Shown: positions 51,536-61,590 of the stretch, in pieces | How positions within the stretch are numbered: the first letter of the stretch is position 1 | How the letters are laid out: the number at the start of each line of letters is the position of its first letter | NCBI RefSeq assembly: GCF_028807635.1 | Contig: NZ_JARBAX010000001.1 | Coordinates: 3,831,501-3,895,500, forward strand | DNA length: 64,000 nucleotides | Reading direction: 5' to 3' | Source: Streptomyces spiramyceticus | GTDB lineage: Bacteria; Actinomycetota; Actinomycetes; Streptomycetales; Streptomycetaceae | Program-made: the position numbers and the translations under genes | Notes under the pieces: model-generated | What the model was told of the DNA's origin: nothing | Databases searched by the model: none | The model's input: only the letters and a program-made list of their open reading frames with translations

Positions 51536-51677
51536 GGCGTTACAGGCCCGTGCGGACCTCCGGTGGGGCCATGCGGCGTTTGCCGGGCCGGCACCCGTCT
51601 CAGTGGCCGGAATGGCGTTGCGGGGGCCGCTGGATCCCTTCAGGAAGTCCGGCGTGTTGGGGTGCACGGCATTTGTT

Positions 51678-51706
51678 TTGACCGAAGTCCATGAGGTAGG
51701 TACGCT
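51678..51706 (+). promoter_or_regulatory. rpsL operon promoter
   Basis: TTGACC (51678-51683), 17 bases, TACGCT (51701-51706). A near-consensus promoter; the mRNA would start near 51713. Confidence 0.75.
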
Positions 51707-51824
51707 CAGACCTTGTGCCTGGGGTGTGCCTGGGCTCCCGTGCGTGCCTATGTCCGCGCGGAGAGCCAGGACAAACACACCGCAATCTGTCTCTTCTCCG
51801 TTTTGGCGGGGGCTTGCAGTGTTC

Positions 51825-51850
51825 GACACACCCGACCGCGTGGGTCGGAG
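51825..51850 (+). promoter_or_regulatory. Conserved leader hairpin, rpsL copy
   Basis: GACAC, then A, then CCCGACC-GCGTG-GGTCGG and AG. The 6-bp stem CCGACC / GGTCGG with loop GCGTG is identical to the one in the rpsJ leader (61184-61209); the 26-base blocks differ at one base. Shared by two separate ribosomal-protein operons, so a regulatory or processing role is likely. Confidence 0.65.
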
Positions 51851-51900
51851 GTGTTCCAGGTTAGTTTCACAGTGATCGGCACACAGAAACCGGAGAAGTA

Positions 51901-52272
51901 GTGCCTACGATCCAGCAGCTGGTCCGCAAGGGCCGGCAGGACAAGGTCGAGAAGAACAAGACGCCCGCACTTGAGGGTTCCCCTCAGCGTCGCGGTGTCT
52001 GCACGCGTGTGTTCACGACCACCCCGAAGAAGCCGAACTCGGCCCTGCGTAAGGTCGCGCGTGTGCGTCTGACCAGCGGGATCGAAGTCACTGCTTACAT
52101 CCCGGGTGAGGGACACAACCTGCAGGAGCACTCGATCGTGCTCGTGCGTGGTGGCCGTGTGAAGGACCTGCCGGGTGTTCGCTACAAGATCATCCGCGGC
52201 TCGCTCGACACCCAGGGTGTCAAGAACCGCAAGCAGGCCCGCAGCCGCTACGGCGCCAAGAAGGAGAAGTAA
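51901..52272 (+). CDS. rpsL: 30S ribosomal protein S12
   Basis: 123 residues from GTG 51901. '[21 protein letters not shown]' contains the wild-type Lys of streptomycin-resistance position 43, and '[16 protein letters not shown]' the wild-type position 88. Sits in the decoding centre. First gene of the str operon rpsL-rpsG-fusA-tuf. Confidence 0.98.
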
Positions 52273-56293: not shown

Positions 56294-56343
56294 AGAAGGG
56301 CCCCGGCCCCGCCGTTCGCGGTGGAGCCGGGGCCCTTCTGTTG
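56294..56343 (+). terminator. str operon terminator
   Basis: A perfect 14-bp stem AGAAGGGCCCCGGC / GCCGGGGCCCTTCT followed by GTTGTTG. Confidence 0.85.
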
Positions 56344-56370
56344 TTGCGGTGGCGGTGGCGGTGGTTGCGG

Positions 56371-58458
56371 CTACGGCTTCCAGAGCCATGGCGTGGCGTC
56401 CGGGCCGAGGCCCACCACTGCCGGGCCCTCGGGGCCGAGGTGCAGCGTGGGGACCTCAAGGGATGCCGGCGCTCCCTTGCGCCGTATCAGGCGGCCGTCC
56501 GTCAGGAGCTGGACGCGGCCCTTGCGGTCGCGGCCCACCAGGACCGGGCCCTTCGGGGCCGTTACGGCGCCCACCGCCCCGTAACCGTTGAAGCGCAGCC
56601 GCACCGGGCTCGCGCCGCCCACCCGTGCCGTCGTCAGCCGCGCGGTCGCGGGGCCCCGGTACACGAGGTCGATGCCGCCGTCCGGCGCCGCGAGGGCCGT
56701 GGGGGAGCCGCCCGGCGTGGGCAGACCGGTCGCCGGGCGCGGTCCCACCGGCTTGCCGGGTGCGTCCTGCGTCCAGTGGTGGACGGTGTCGTGGCCCGCG
56801 GCGAAGACGTGGACGCGGCCATGGCCGTCCACCGCGGTGGCCAGGCCGTCCTGTATCTCGCCGCCGCCCAGATCACGCCAGCCGGCCCAGCGCCCCGCCG
56901 TGTCCCTGACCCGCGTACTGATGCCCTTGTCCGCGTTGCGTACGAACAGATGGACCCGGCCGTCGGGAGCCGCCACGGCGACGGGCGAGCCGATGCGGCG
57001 CCCCCGGTCCCGGCGCTTCTCCGGGTTGCCGAGGCCGGTCCAGGCGCTGAACTCCCCGTCAGAAGTTCGCTGTTCGAGCAGTACTATCTCGCGCGCATTG
57101 GCCGCGCCATGACCGCCGAGCGCGGCGAAACGCAGCCCGAATATGAGCTGCCTCCCGTCCCCCAGAGTGGCCGAGCCGAGCGCCGGTGCGAGCGGCCCGC
57201 CGCCCAGGTCGTCCGGTGCGCCCCACACGCCGCTGCCGCGCGCCGTCTCGCGCCAGCGTGCGACCCGCAGGCCCAGCACGCCGTACGCCGTCAGGCGCCC
57301 GTCGGTCCCGGAGGTGACGACCGGGCGTGCACCGGGGTAGCGGTAGTGGGTGGATCGGACCCAGCCCTTCCGGTTGGTGAGCGGGCGGTCGCCGCCGACG
57401 TTGTAGTCGCCGCAGCCCGCCGCGTTCCCGCACTCCCAGTCGGGTGCGCCGCCGTACGGGACGAGGTGCGAGGCCTTCTCCCTGAGCACGTCCCGCGGCA
57501 GATTCTTGGGCCAGTGGCGGTTGTAGTAGCCGCGGTACGACGTGGCGACGAAGCCGGGCACGTCACCGCGGTTCTCGGTGGCCTCGGCGACCCGGCGGAT
57601 CATCGCCGCCCAGGCGAAACAGCCGACAGCCGTGTGGTCGGCGTGGTCGGAGTACCCGGGCTGCTCGCTGTCGCGGCGCCGGGTGGCCTCGTCGCTGTGC
57701 TGGATGTCCGGGTCGGGATCGAGGGTCTGCACGACGGTGGGCCGGTACTCGGCCATCAGCCCCGCGAGTACGTCGATGAGCCCGTCGTACGTGTACGAAC
57801 CGGCCTTCTGCAGCGGCGAGTTGTCGGCCACGACGGTACGCAGCGACAGCCCCCTCGCCTCCCACAGACTGGGCAGTCCCATCCGCCCCCACGAGGTGTG
57901 CATGGCGAGGTTGAGGAAGATCAGCTCGACCCGGCGGTCACCGTTCGCGAGTGAGTTCAGCTCGGCCCTGCGGTCCCCGCGCAGCGTGGTGACGGACTTG
58001 TCCCACTCGGTGAAGCGGGGCAGTCCGAGGAGAGTGGCGTACGCCTGGCGCAGCCCCTGATGGCGGGCGGAGGAGTACGCCGTCCTGTCGGCGGCCTGGG
58101 GGCCCGCGCCGGGGATCCGGTTGACACCGTTGGCCTCGCCCGCGGTGACGTACACACAGACCAGCGGGACGCCGGAGTCCAGCGTCCGCTGGGTGTCCGG
58201 GTTCATGAAGTACAGGTCGTCGTCCGGGTGGGCGAGTATCTGCATGAGCAGCGCGTGCCGGGGCCCGGATATCTGCTTGCCCGGCAGCGGATCGGGCGCG
58301 GGGCCCTTACGGCGCGGGGCGGGGACCGAGCAGGCGCTCACGGCGAGGCCCGCCGTGACGGCGGCGGCGGAGGCGACGAGGGTGCGCCTGGTGGGCCCGG
58401 ACGCGGTGGCGCCCTCAGGGCAGGCAGGGGCAGGTCCCCGTTCGGCGGTACTGGCCAC
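56371..58458 (-). CDS. PIG-L family deacetylase lipoprotein with C-terminal repeat domain
   Basis: 695 residues from GTG 58458, with GGGGAG upstream. The N-terminus has a twin-Arg then '[11 protein letters not shown]' (lipobox, Cys about residue 43), so it is exported and probably lipidated. Residues about 70-290 are the PIG-L (LmbE) deacetylase: '[20 protein letters not shown]' (AHPDDD zinc motif) and '[12 protein letters not shown]' (HxxH). Residues about 370-695 show repeated short beta-blade units ('[16 protein letters not shown]', '[13 protein letters not shown]', '[12 protein letters not shown]', '[10 protein letters not shown]'), like a PLL-type beta-propeller. It may act on N-acetylated sugars of the envelope; substrate unknown. 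Confidence 0.88.
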
Positions 58459-58591
58459 GCGTGCTGCTCCCCGTCCACTTCCCCCGCAGCGGGCGGTGCT
58501 TCGCGCTGCGCTCTGTGAAGGGGGACGGGGATTCGGTGACCGGGGTTGCCTCTACGCGGTGGCGTGTGCGTGGGCCTTTGCCAGGCGTGGC

Positions 58592-59179
58592 CTACGGGTA
58601 ACGGGGCAGCTGCTCCGTCGAGATCGTCCACTCGCCGATCGTGACGTCCTCGCCGTAGAGGAAGTCCTTCCGGGTCGCGTACCGGGGACCGTTCGGGGTG
58701 GGGTGGATCTCGGTGAGCACCGCTCCCGCGCCCGTACGGGGATCGAAGATCGCGTATACGGGAATCCCGAGGAGCGGATAGTCCCGCGTCTTGCCCACCC
58801 AGTCGTTGTCCGGGTTGGACCGGGACACGACCTCGATGGCGGCGATCAGGGTGCGCGGATCGAAGGCTCCCTCGACTTCCATGTCCGCTTCGGCAATAAC
58901 CATCACGTCCGGGTGACGCATGATGCCCTCGGCCTGGTCTTCCACGTCGGGAGTCCCCGTGTGGGCCACCAGGTCTTCCGGCATCACCTTCTCAAGGCGC
59001 TTCCGGACGCGCAGCGTGGTCAGCTCGTGGGGGCCGACGGGCGCCATCATGTCGTGAACGATCCCTTCCTTGGTGATCTCGAATTTGCCGGGAAGGGTGT
59101 CGTCCATGGACTGAACGAACTCCCGCATCGCCCCGTAGTGGGAGGCGTCCCGCCGCGCGTCGTCCGGGGCGATGGTCAT
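58592..59179 (-). CDS. Uma2-family (DUF820) putative endonuclease
   Basis: 195 residues from ATG 59179, with GAGGAG upstream. The fold is the PD-(D/E)xK nuclease type: 'FEITKEGIVHDMMAPVGPHE', 'IMRHPDVMVIAEADME' (Asp) and 'RTLIAAIEVVSRSNPDNDWVGKTRDYPLLGIPVYAIFDPRTG' (E...K), read in consecutive parts. Such genes are numerous in Streptomyces; role unknown. It follows the HTH gene in the same direction (52-base gap). Confidence 0.88.
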   Translation of the reverse strand: MTIAPDDARRDASHYGAMREFVQSMDDTLPGKFEITKEGIVHDMMAPVGPHELTTLRVRKRLEKVMPEDLVAHTGTPDVEDQAEGIMRHPDVMVIAEADMEVEGAFDPRTLIAAIEVVSRSNPDNDWVGKTRDYPLLGIPVYAIFDPRTGAGAVLTEIHPTPNGPRYATRKDFLYGEDVTIGEWTISTEQLPRYP

Positions 59180-59231
59180 GGCACTCGCTCCTCGTCGTCT
59201 GTGCCCAGGGGCAGGGATCGTCGCTTTCATG

Positions 59232-60245
59232 CTAGGCGGCCCCCGTAAGGCCCGGGCGGCAGTCGCGGCAGCGGCCCGGTTCGGGCGCGCGGAAGGCGCG
59301 GTCGCAGCCCTCGCAGGTCTGGAACGGGTCCGGCCGTACCACCTTTGGTGCGGGCGGCAGGGGTGGCGGCATCCGCGCGGTGAGGCGGTGTGCGAGCAGG
59401 GCCGCGGGGTGGCGTGGCGGCTCGGGAAGATTCGCGGTCATGGCGGCGCGTACGGCGTCGGGAGCGGCCCCGAGTTCCAGCCACGCGGCGACGGCGGGCG
59501 CGAGCCGCTGCACGTCCCGCTCGGCCAGCAGCAGACGCGGGTCGTCCCGGCGCAGGTCCGCGAGGAGCGCGGCGGCGACGCGGTGGCGCGCCGGGTCCTG
59601 GGTGCGGGGCTCGGGGAGGGGCGGGGGGACGCGTCGGGGTTGCGGGGCGGGTTCCGGTGCGGGTACGGGATCCGATGCCGATGCCGATGCCGATGCCGAT
59701 GCCGATGCCGATGCCGGTTCGGGGGCGGGGGCCGGTGTGGGCTTCGGTGCCGGCTCGGGTGTTTGCGGCGGGGGTACGTCGGCGGGGGCGGGCCGGGGCG
59801 GGGATGCCTTCGGGTGCGGGACCGGGGCTGGGGGTGCGGGCCGCTGCGGCTTGGGCTCTGCGGCGCGGGCGGGGCGGCTCGGCTCCGGCTGGTTGTACGA
59901 CACCGTGTGCGTGACGATCCGGCCGTTCGGCAGCCGCTCCCGGGTGCGCTCCAGGTAGCCGTACGCCTCCAGCTCGCGCAGGGCGGCGGCGATGCGTGCC
60001 TCGCTCTCCGGGAAGCGGTCCGAGAGGCACTTGATGCCGATACGGGCCCCGGCGGGCAGCGACTGGATGTGCGCGGCGAGCCCGATCGCGACGAGCGTCA
60101 GTTCGCGGTGCTGGGTGAGGTGATTGCCGACGACCGTGTAGCGGCTGGTGTGCCGGGTGTTGGCGTGTACGACGCCGGAACGGGCGGCGGCCCGGGGAAC
60201 GCCGGACGAGGCGCGCGAGGGCGCGCTAAGGTGCTGGGGAGCCAT
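59232..60245 (-). CDS. Helix-turn-helix protein with (Ala-Ser) tract and C-terminal zinc ribbon
   Basis: 337 residues from ATG 60245. About residues 40-120 form a winged helix-turn-helix ('RELTLVAIGLAAHIQSLP', 'RIGIKCLSDRFPESEARIAAALRELEAYGYLER'). A Pro/Ala-rich stretch follows with 'ASASASASASAS' encoded by a GATGCC repeat. The C-terminus carries 'CEGCDRAFRAPEPGRCRDC', two CxxC pairs that could bind zinc. Similar proteins are annotated as helix-turn-helix regulators in Streptomyces. Function unknown. Confidence 0.85.
   Translation of the reverse strand: MAPQHLSAPSRASSGVPRAAARSGVVHANTRHTSRYTVVGNHLTQHRELTLVAIGLAAHIQSLPAGARIGIKCLSDRFPESEARIAAALRELEAYGYLERTRERLPNGRIVTHTVSYNQPEPSRPARAAEPKPQRPAPPAPVPHPKASPPRPAPADVPPPQTPEPAPKPTPAPAPEPASASASASASASASDPVPAPEPAPQPRRVPPPLPEPRTQDPARHRVAAALLADLRRDDPRLLLAERDVQRLAPAVAAWLELGAAPDAVRAAMTANLPEPPRHPAALLAHRLTARMPPPLPPAPKVVRPDPFQTCEGCDRAFRAPEPGRCRDCRPGLTGAA
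59674..59715. repeat. Hexanucleotide repeat (GATGCC)x7 inside a coding region
   Basis: Seven perfect GATGCC units; on the minus strand they encode alternating Ala and Ser. Six-base units keep the frame, so length can vary without breaking the gene. Confidence 0.9.
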
Positions 60246-60464
60246 CGGGAAGCCCTTACTTCCTCGGTGGTCAGGCCCTCGTTCGGGATTGGCGTCCCGG
60301 CCGGGGGCCGTCACATGTCTGTGCTTGTCGGGCCGAGCATATGCCCGGCAACCGGCCGAAAATCCAGCCCAGTTGGCGAACGCCACCCGTGTGGGTGACG
60401 GGGAGGCTGGTGGGGTTGGGAGGGGTTTTTGCACTCCGGGATTGAAAGTCTCTGATGTCGTGCC

Positions 60465-60496
60465 GTACCGCGATGCGGCTCACCGCATCGCGGTAC
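60465..60496. terminator. Perfect 14-bp palindromic hairpin
   Basis: GTACCGCGATGCGG / CCGCATCGCGGTAC, loop CTCA. On the minus strand it lies 14 bases past the stop of the ATP-binding remnant and is probably that gene's surviving terminator. Confidence 0.65.
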
Positions 60497-60509
60497 ACCG
60501 CGACCCGGT

Positions 60510-60655
60510 TCAGAGCGCGATCTCGGCCCACACCGTCTTGCAGGGCGACGGGCCCGATGTGACGCCCCAGCGGTCGGCGAGCGCCGCGACGAGCAGCAGC
60601 CCGCGTCCCGACTCCCCGCCGCCGGGCAGCTGTGCGGCCGGGAGCCGGTCGCCGC
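60510..60655 (-). pseudogene. C-terminal remnant of an ATP-binding (RsbW-like HATPase) protein
   Basis: The last about 45 residues of the minus-strand frame, 'ESGRGLLLVAALADRWGVTS' then 'GPSPCKTVWAEIAL', are the typical end of Streptomyces ATP-binding anti-sigma-like proteins. The upstream 2/3 of the domain is missing; the frame runs on into unrelated sequence. Confidence 0.65.
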
Positions 60656-60830
60656 CGAGCAGGAGTGGTCGAAGAGCAGCTACAGCGCCAGCGCCAGCAA
60701 CGACTGCGTCGAGATCGCCACCGGCTGCGGAACCGTCCACGTCCGCGACTCCAAGAACGTCCACGGCCCCCAGCTCGGGTTCACCCCCGGCGCCTGGGGT
60801 GACTTCGTAACGTACGCATCCGGGCACTGA
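60656..60830 (+). pseudogene. DUF397 gene fragment without start
   Basis: The frame 'EWSKSSYSASASNDCVEIAT' then 'GCGTVHVRDSKNVHGPQLGF' and 'TPGAWGDFVTYASGH' is a nearly complete DUF397 domain, but no start codon or ribosome site precedes it. It abuts the ATP-binding remnant, so the HTH gene usually between them is deleted. Confidence 0.7.
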
Positions 60831-61281
60831 GCGCAAGAACCTGAACGGGGGCTGCGAGCCCGCGCTTGACGCGATGGCCCCGGGGGGTAAGATCCTGCGC
60901 CCCGATTGGCCAGTGACGTGCCCGGTATGGCAGACTGTCGGGGTTGCTCGGTTGAGTGCCGATGCTGCGCGCCTCCCGCCGGGAGGACCGGAAGCGAGTC
61001 CCACAGTACTCGTCGCCCAATCTGCCCTCTGGGCAGCGCTGGGGCGGACGTACGGGAATCTTCCGGGAAGCGTCAGTGCGGTGCCGGCCAGGCACCCGGT
61101 GGGTGTTCTCCCCCGGCTTGCGGTCGCGGACCGCATCCCCTGTTAAAGGGAAAACCTTCGGGATTTCTTGCTGGCGGGGATGCGACACGCCCGACCGCGT
61201 GGGTCGGAGCAGAGCGGTGCTTTTCGAGGCAACCCCCTCGGGTTCCAGAGCGTTACGAGAGAACAGGACTACTAGGTAGCC
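60831..61281 (+). other. rpsJ upstream and leader region (no gene)
   Basis: 451 bases with no gene. A promoter-like 'TATGGCAGACTGT' is near 60928. The conserved leader hairpin is at 61184-61209. A T/A-rich AAAGGGAAAACC is near 61146. No clear AGGAGG precedes the rpsJ ATG. Confidence 0.6.
61184..61209 (+). promoter_or_regulatory. Conserved leader hairpin, rpsJ copy
   Basis: GACAC, then G, then CCCGACC-GCGTG-GGTCGG and AG: the same 26-base block as in the rpsL leader (51825-51850), one base different. It lies 72 bases before the rpsJ start. Confidence 0.65.
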
Positions 61282-61590
61282 ATGGCGGGACAGAAGATCC
61301 GCATCCGGCTCAAGGCCTACGACCACGAGGTCATCGACTCTTCGGCGAAGAAGATCGTCGAGACGGTGACTCGCACTGGTGCGTCGGTCGCAGGCCCGGT
61401 GCCGCTGCCCACAGAGAAGAACGTGTACTGCGTCATCAAGTCGCCGCACAAGTACAAGGATTCTCGCGAGCACTTCGAGATGCGCACGCACAAGCGCCTC
61501 ATCGACATCCTCGACCCCACGCCCAAGACCGTTGACTCGTTGATGCGCCTGGACCTTCCGGCCGGCGTTGACATCGAGATCAAGCTCTGA
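61282..61590 (+). CDS. rpsJ: 30S ribosomal protein S10
   Basis: 102 residues. '[32 protein letters not shown]' and '[28 protein letters not shown]' (in parts) are the family core. It is also the NusE transcription factor partner of NusB. First gene of the S10 operon. Confidence 0.98.

Follow-up and report, generated by a model that had tools for sequence, protein, structure and literature searches.

A short conserved sequence ahead of the S10 and str ribosomal-protein operons of Actinomycetes, a candidate cis operator

Why should two separate ribosomal-protein operons of a Streptomyces genome carry nearly the same short block of sequence ahead of their first genes? In E. coli, the leader of the S10 operon is the target of control by ribosomal protein L4, and the str operon is under the control of S7 (PMC10931766). 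For actinobacteria, the control of ribosomal-protein synthesis has hardly been studied, and PMC8470358 states that there is almost no information on it. The window analysed here, a stretch of 64,000 nucleotides, contains the first genes of both operons, and a sequence-only reading of it had described a 26-base hairpin shared by the two leaders and suggested a common regulator. Below, the block is followed through the source genome and the class, and the ways in which it might be read are weighed.

The element in the source genome and across the class

The block is GACACACCCGACCGCGTGGGTCGGAG before rpsL (51825-51850, plus strand) and GACACGCCCGACCGCGTGGGTCGGAG before rpsJ (61184-61209, plus strand). 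The two copies of the 26-mer are 9.36 kb apart and agree at 25 of 26 bases, the sole difference being A/G at position 6. The start codons follow after 50 nt for rpsL (start at 51901) and 72 nt for rpsJ (start at 61282). When up to three mismatches are allowed, the 26-mer occurs at just these two places in the whole genome of 7,079,233 bases, both on the coding strand, and a reversed control pattern has no match in the same genome. The near-identity of the two blocks, the first claim of the sequence-only reading, is thus borne out. The same reading pointed to TGGCGGGG shortly upstream of both copies. It is indeed there in this genome (51804-51811 and 61172-61179), but of the same-family leaders compared, 12 for each gene, only those of this genome have it within 40 nt of the element, and we therefore regard it as a coincidence. 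The features are collected in Table 1.

Table 1. Features of the str and S10 leaders in the window
Feature	Position (strand)	Sequence	Remarks
Predicted rpsL promoter	51678..51706 (+)	TTGACC-N17-TACGCT	some 120 nt ahead of the element
Hairpin predicted close to the rpsL transcript 5′ end	51717..51735 (+)	GCCTGGG-GTGTG-CCTGGGC	within 51712-51747
Element, rpsL copy	51825..51848 (+)	GACACACCCGACCGCGTGGGTCGG	24-nt core; conserved C at 51824
Segment complementary to the 5′ arm of the 5′-end hairpin	51851..51861 (+)		just past the element; statistical basis
rpsL (S12)	51901..52272 (+)		first gene of the str operon
Putative rpsJ promoter	60906..60948 (+)	TTGGCC ... CAGACT	hexamers by eye; GGTTGCT at the presumed transcript 5′ end (60942-60948)
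Element, rpsJ copy	61184..61207 (+)	GACACGCCCGACCGCGTGGGTCGG	conserved C at 61183
rpsJ (S10)	61282..61590 (+)		first gene of the S10 operon

A total of 158 genomes of the class were drawn, with rpsL located in 154 and rpsJ in 154. Leaders were compared for 104 of the 158, those omitted being mostly surplus members of well-covered families; one genome, G304, lacks an examinable rpsJ leader, which leaves 103 rpsJ leaders and 207 leaders in all. A 24-nt core, GACACRCCCGACCKCGKGGGTCGG, with a C before it, recurs across the class. At five or fewer mismatches in 24 to the consensus GACACRCCCGACCGCGKGGGYCGG, it is found in 90 of 104 rpsL leaders and 60 of the 103 examinable rpsJ leaders, and the antisense strands of the 207 leaders have no match at that threshold. 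One additional rpsL leader, with six mismatches, equals the best antisense match and is uncertain; it is counted among the 91 element-bearing rpsL leaders. By genome, the element precedes both genes in 49, rpsL only in 42, rpsJ only in 11 and neither in two. Conservation outside the genus, on which the sequence-only reading had made its proposal depend, is therefore seen: in the aligned rpsL and rpsJ leaders, the element is spread over the class.

Over the 151 elements, positions A2, C3, A4, C7, C8, C9, G10, C15, G16, and G18 are invariant, and the preceding C, G1, C5, A11, and C13 are 94-99% conserved. Variation at position 6 is between A and G and at position 17 between G and T; position 14 has G or T in most elements. 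Positions 19-24 are less constrained, with the greatest degeneracy in the rpsL copies of family f3, presumably the mycobacterial family. The second hairpin arm varies, and the 5′ half is almost fixed as a linear sequence. The distance from the end of the element to the start codon is 31-153 nt for rpsL and 51-237 nt for rpsJ. Where a genome has two copies, base 17 is the same in both in 43 of 49 cases, with 27.2 expected; positions 6, 20, and 21 show a smaller excess of agreement, and at positions 12, 13, 14, and 24 the agreement is not above chance. The match at base 17 may reflect one common reader of both copies, and common descent could yield the same.

The element is also specific to its two sites. 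Alignment A1 has 103 rows, one per distinct element, family, and gene, taken from the 151 elements, and the sequence-only model R1 was built from these 103 distinct elements of the compared genomes. It matches at least 151 of the 158 class genomes at E ≤ 0.05; many of these supplied training rows, so that matches among the compared genomes are partly by construction. Independent of the model are 12 of 14 complete genus genomes and the exact scan of a public collection. Each of the 14 genus genomes (93-100% complete) has exactly two matches, at 31-39 bits, with the next best at no more than 20.7 bits; a 15th, 79% complete, is without a strong match. Many copies in unrelated places of the genome, one of the two outcomes named beforehand as counting against the proposal, did not occur in these 14. 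An exact search of the public species collection for the variant with G at position 17 returned at least 120 stretches, of which 80 were fetched. All 80 matches precede rpsJ (68) or rpsL (12) and come from records titled as Actinomycetota; the gene was recognised by a script in 79 stretches, 49-173 nt downstream, and by eye in the last. Named mycobacteria (L241, L273) are among the exact matches.

Outside the class, a model scan of 179 genomes from other classes of the phylum did not find the element. Two of them gave weak matches (22 bits), with no rpsL or rpsJ in the stretch read downstream. Viral contigs hold no exact match, and plasmids hold nothing resembling the rpsL leader. The comparison with Rfam that the sequence-only reading had called for gives no family for the element, either at gathering scores in the source window or at E ≤ 1 in 20 leader loci. 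By title and abstract, no published description came up in a search that had subscription papers largely outside its reach, and six letter strings of the element retrieved only Pseudomonas papers, unrelated by title and abstract. Literature on ribosomal-protein leaders, attenuators, and actinobacterial transcripts describes nothing similar in the portions available; a table in PMC7247131 has actinobacterial candidates for L17 and L31 among the entries listed. As far as the literature searched shows, the element is undescribed.

Position in the transcript and operon layout

In 69 of the 91 element-bearing rpsL leaders, a promoter of the type TTTGACB-N16-19-TAnnnT lies at most 260 nt ahead of the element, its -10 box ending 22-200 nt (median 119) before the element. 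In the 91 leaders, this pattern is absent from the antisense control and from the segment between the element and the rpsL start codon, and it is found in none of the 60 rpsJ leaders. In 43 of the 60 rpsJ leaders, against 1 of 60 antisense, GGTTGCY is found no more than 330 nt ahead of the element, and it adjoins a TTGGCC...CAnACT-like promoter read by eye. Since it lies downstream of a predicted promoter, the element should be transcribed in most lineages, the start sites being predictions. On these predicted starts, it stands in the transcribed leader of a ribosomal-protein operon, as a ribosomal-protein leader does, with genus g188 as the exception. The source rpsL leader was scanned for an intrinsic attenuator, a hairpin with a U run between the element and the start codon, and none was found; the sole terminator-like match (51653-51668) is upstream of the promoter.

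The presence of a copy at rpsJ follows the layout of the two operons. With a tuf-rpsJ gap of more than 335 nt, the rpsJ copy is present in 41 of 42 measured genomes, and with a gap of 335 nt or less in 6 of 47; 15 genomes could not be measured, and between 192 and 335 nt genomes with and without the copy both occur. The gap in G082 is 3,710 nt. In the genomes with the element at rpsL only, rpsJ is close behind tuf in all 41 of the 42 that are measurable, so that transcription from rpsL presumably enters the S10 genes. By this rule, a full element lies upstream of the S10 genes in 102 of 104 genomes, the layout of G304 being unverified. The 11 genomes with the element at rpsJ only have a separate str operon without an element within 700 nt of rpsL. 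In G346, a member of the genus (L327, L328), rpsL and rpsJ are 1.67 Mb apart on opposite strands and the element is at both. Since nearly every S10 unit has the element and str does not always have it, we conclude that it is first of all a feature of the S10 unit, and the layout rule marks the S10 operon as its essential client.

The interval from tuf to rpsJ in the source genome, at about 56300-60850 of the window, is occupied by some 5 kb of unrelated genes, and in 11 measured genomes of the same family it ranges from 1.4 to 12.8 kb. At 60246-60475 on the minus strand, Rfam gives a match to a small RNA of Streptomyces, scr4677 (RF02673; 107.7 bits, E 7.5e-27), on the strand opposite to the rpsJ element and some 0.7 kb ahead of it.

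Hairpins, covariation and likeness to rRNA

The sequence-only reading had taken the 26-base block for a hairpin. A hairpin can be drawn, and the 42-nt fold of the rpsL copy is better than most of 200 shuffles (z -2.07, 5 of 200 as good); for the rpsJ copy, z is -0.57, with 51 of 200 as good. However, the hairpin is not conserved. As a conserved feature, the 6-bp CCGACC/GGTCGG stem was rejected, with 82.0% of cells paired over the 103 elements versus 82.2% in shuffled columns; it shows no covariation, its few changes being uncompensated. A smaller hairpin, CCCG-ACCK-CGKG, is built mostly of invariant bases and is for that reason beyond covariation testing. A longer hairpin, CGAC.C.CCCG(ACCK)CGKGGGUCG, in which two purines are bulged, is paired at 89.5% versus 89.3% in shuffles, 23 of 500 being as high. 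The favoured fold changes with base 17: where it is G, the predicted energy of the long fold is -12.0 versus -10.6 for the CCGACC/GGTCGG hairpin, and where it is U, the latter stays at -10.6 versus -4.8 for the long fold. The absence of covariation is explained in part by the 5′ strand of the element, which hardly changes. An outer stem in the flanks was also tried and is too weak, with a helix score of 12.45 versus 11.99 for swapped partners (sd 0.20; the highest of 200 shuffles reached 12.53). Conservation does not single out any one fold, and the main constraint is on the sequence. A covariation-supported structure, a mark of ribosomal-protein leaders, was thus not found, the longer fold being marginal.

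Many ribosomal-protein leaders, though not all, resemble a binding site in rRNA. Here, no such resemblance was found at the sequence level: the best sense score, -9.6 bits, is inside the range of 100 shuffles, whose maxima average -16.0 and reach 3.8, in a comparison with one rRNA operon of the source genome in which a mimic in shape alone would be missed. A one-mismatch 10-mer in the presumed 5S rRNA is at chance level by estimate, as is a two-mismatch partial likeness, TCACTCCCGATTACGGG (L204:484-500), 24 nt before a 16S rRNA.

A different hairpin is predicted at the 5′ end of the rpsL transcript, often with GUGCCYGGG, in rpsL leaders of about 30 families, with arm sequences that differ between families. 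Against shuffles, its stability has a mean z of -1.2; the element itself has -0.6, and a control stretch from the same leaders -0.1. The 5′-end arms of rpsL leaders show complementarity to the 40 nt that follow the element, with a score of 18.3 versus 16.5 for swapped partners (p=0.0002, n=30, one per family). For the first 25 nt alone, p=0.0014, and for a reverse-complement control, p=0.07. This was one of 14 region pairs compared (z 3.8 in the rpsL leaders, then repeated with one leader per family), the other 13 having no comparable excess; the rpsJ set, at eight leaders, was too small for the test. In the source genome, a long-range or alternative pairing between the arm and the segment just past the element is possible. 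The complementarity favours an RNA mechanism as a hint, being a single signal among 14 tests.

A proposed shared operator and its alternatives

Our leading proposal, a tentative one, is that the element is a cis operator, of RNA rather than DNA, through which one regulator couples the S10 and str operons, with feedback by a ribosomal protein. The element would be the operator of the S10 transcription unit, and also of str where str is separate, and a single trans-acting factor would read mainly the linear sequence CGACAC-R-CCCGACC. Within the 5′ untranslated leader it may act as RNA that has a small local fold, setting the expression level of the operon by way of elongation, translation, or stability. 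An RNA operator is preferred because the copies are mostly transcribed, are always in the sense orientation, and are free in their distance from the promoter. Since the S10 operon is the obligatory client, the first candidates for a feedback factor among its products would be L4 and then S10; the str operon would share that protein, since it once formed one unit with S10 and in many genera still does. The proposal builds on the observed sequence, specificity, and distribution of the element, its placement, in most lineages, downstream of a predicted promoter, and its dependence on operon layout. We infer from these the action as RNA, the binding of a protein, and the identity of that protein. 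Of the earlier suggestion of a common regulator, the part that stands is an element common to two ribosomal-protein operons; that the regulator is a ribosomal protein is still conjecture. The element is probably a common control point for ribosome making, and its fixed 24-nt sequence, found in Streptomyces, mycobacteria, and relatives, offers a handle as bait for the regulator and as a site to mutate.

Such an operator would have counterparts elsewhere. In E. coli, a leader element before rpsJ likewise sets S10-operon expression through L4 (PMC10931766). That leader is long and structured and has a terminator, whereas the present element is a linear motif of 24-26 nt that also precedes rpsL. 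The rpsL-rpsG-fus-tuf operon of E. coli is likewise regulated, there through feedback by S7. Attenuators in rpsL leaders have been predicted in a study reportedly by Naville and Gautheret. They were found in Listeria, Xanthomonas, Pseudomonas, and Rickettsia, are of the terminator/antiterminator type, and are said to have "no globally conserved feature" (PMC2965389), in contrast to the fixed sequence held in common with rpsJ here; the same source gives Actinobacteria the fewest predicted intrinsic terminators. S7 binds the E. coli rpsL-rpsG intercistronic region and not the rpsL leader (PMC10931766). The rpsJ motif RLC-47-1 is likewise a candidate leader RNA before rpsJ, but it is a structured RNA of three Peptostreptococcaceae genera and not actinobacterial (PMC11109978). 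Judged from sequence comparison, the element would work like a ribosomal-protein leader, but without covariation or rRNA likeness, common to two operons, and dependent on layout.

A broader version is conceivable but doubtful: a class-wide code read as sequence, with no rRNA mimicry, by which one factor couples the two largest ribosomal-protein units, perhaps a new elongation, antitermination, or initiation factor. If so, a joined str-S10 unit would need one element, and a copy at rpsJ would be expected wherever the operon has come apart.

The boxA, ops, and put elements are likewise short, conserved in sequence, and placed where long transcription units begin; the present element differs from them in sequence, and no processing factor is known for it. 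It could thus be an element in the nascent RNA or the non-template strand that loads an elongation or antitermination complex (NusG, NusA, NusB-S10, or a dedicated factor). There is usually one per transcription unit, near its start, almost invariant as a linear sequence and free in its distance to the start codon, and S10 itself is NusE. We nevertheless consider this unlikely, given that no likeness to boxA, boxC, or ops sequences is apparent by eye, that other long operons are without the element (two strong matches per genus genome), that the rrn operon stretch has nothing above shuffles, and that in family f79 the core lies on the promoter side.

That family bears most directly on a third reading, in which the element is a DNA operator for a transcription factor, mostly within the transcribed region and in f79 beside the -35 box. 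The two genomes without the 24-nt element both belong to genus g188 of this family. Five g188 genomes have no full element at rpsL or rpsJ, and all five have the exact 5′ core GACACGCCCG 327-388 nt before rpsJ, doubled in G296. The sister genus g184 has GACACGCCCG too (2 of 2 genomes), besides a full element closer to rpsJ. In all seven f79 genomes examined (G261, G287, G296, G314, and G332, with L128, L162, and L343-L345, and G254 and G269), GACACGCCCGG lies, as read by eye, at the -35 region of the predicted rpsJ promoter or immediately ahead of it, about 20-35 nt before the GGCA-type -10 region, and in G296 the same holds for the second core copy, GACACGCCCGGG. In five of the seven, the 5′ core GCGACACGCCCGG is the only copy and falls outside the predicted transcript. 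Here, unlike the leader element of the sequence-only reading, the core is at the predicted promoter and not in the leader. Unless there is a further promoter upstream, the only copy in g188 sits where a DNA-bound activator would, which suggests that the 5′ core alone may be sufficient.

Because of f79, more weight falls on the DNA operator: its core abuts the -35 box in seven of seven genomes, the usual place of an activator; elsewhere the exact 10-mer GACACNCCCG is rare, occurring in 2 of 208 antisense leaders; and the sequence is conserved without covariation. Against it are the constant sense orientation, with no antisense match at five or fewer mismatches in 207 leaders, and the free spacing, with 22-200 nt between the -10 box and the element, unlike the usual operator. 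Outside f79, moreover, the stretch upstream of the promoter is not enriched for the core at two or fewer mismatches, either for rpsL (4 of 69 sense versus 7 of 69 antisense) or for rpsJ (4 of 41 versus 2 of 41). A DNA operator is, to our mind, rather improbable, and family f79 offers a natural test between the RNA and DNA readings.

A target site in both leaders for RNA processing, stability, or a small RNA would suit a C-rich sequence that is transcribed in most lineages and common to two mRNAs, and 7-mers of the reverse complement of the core do occur elsewhere in 69 of 151 leaders (mean 45 and maximum 61 in shuffles). Conservation on both sides, before different genes, would need a conserved partner, and we know of no class-wide small RNA complementary to the element; we give this reading little credence. 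A conserved leader peptide in the frame ..R-H-A/T-R-P-R-G-S is highly improbable and was rejected as an attenuator, since, although the variable positions 14, 17, and 20 are third codon positions in one frame and an ATG directly precedes that frame in three genus rpsJ leaders (G000, G104, G318), there is no common start, nothing is conserved outside the element, stops lie within 60 nt upstream in 34% of rpsL and 25% of rpsJ leaders and inside the element in 6.6% and 0%, the frame has no fewer stops than other frames overall, and a conserved short ORF with start and stop was not found.

The rpsL leaders of family f79 (L338-L340, L342, G254, G269), which are without the element, have blocks of their own in common, for example CCCCCACGGCATA, and CGCTGTCACCGTGCAGCA just before the start codon.
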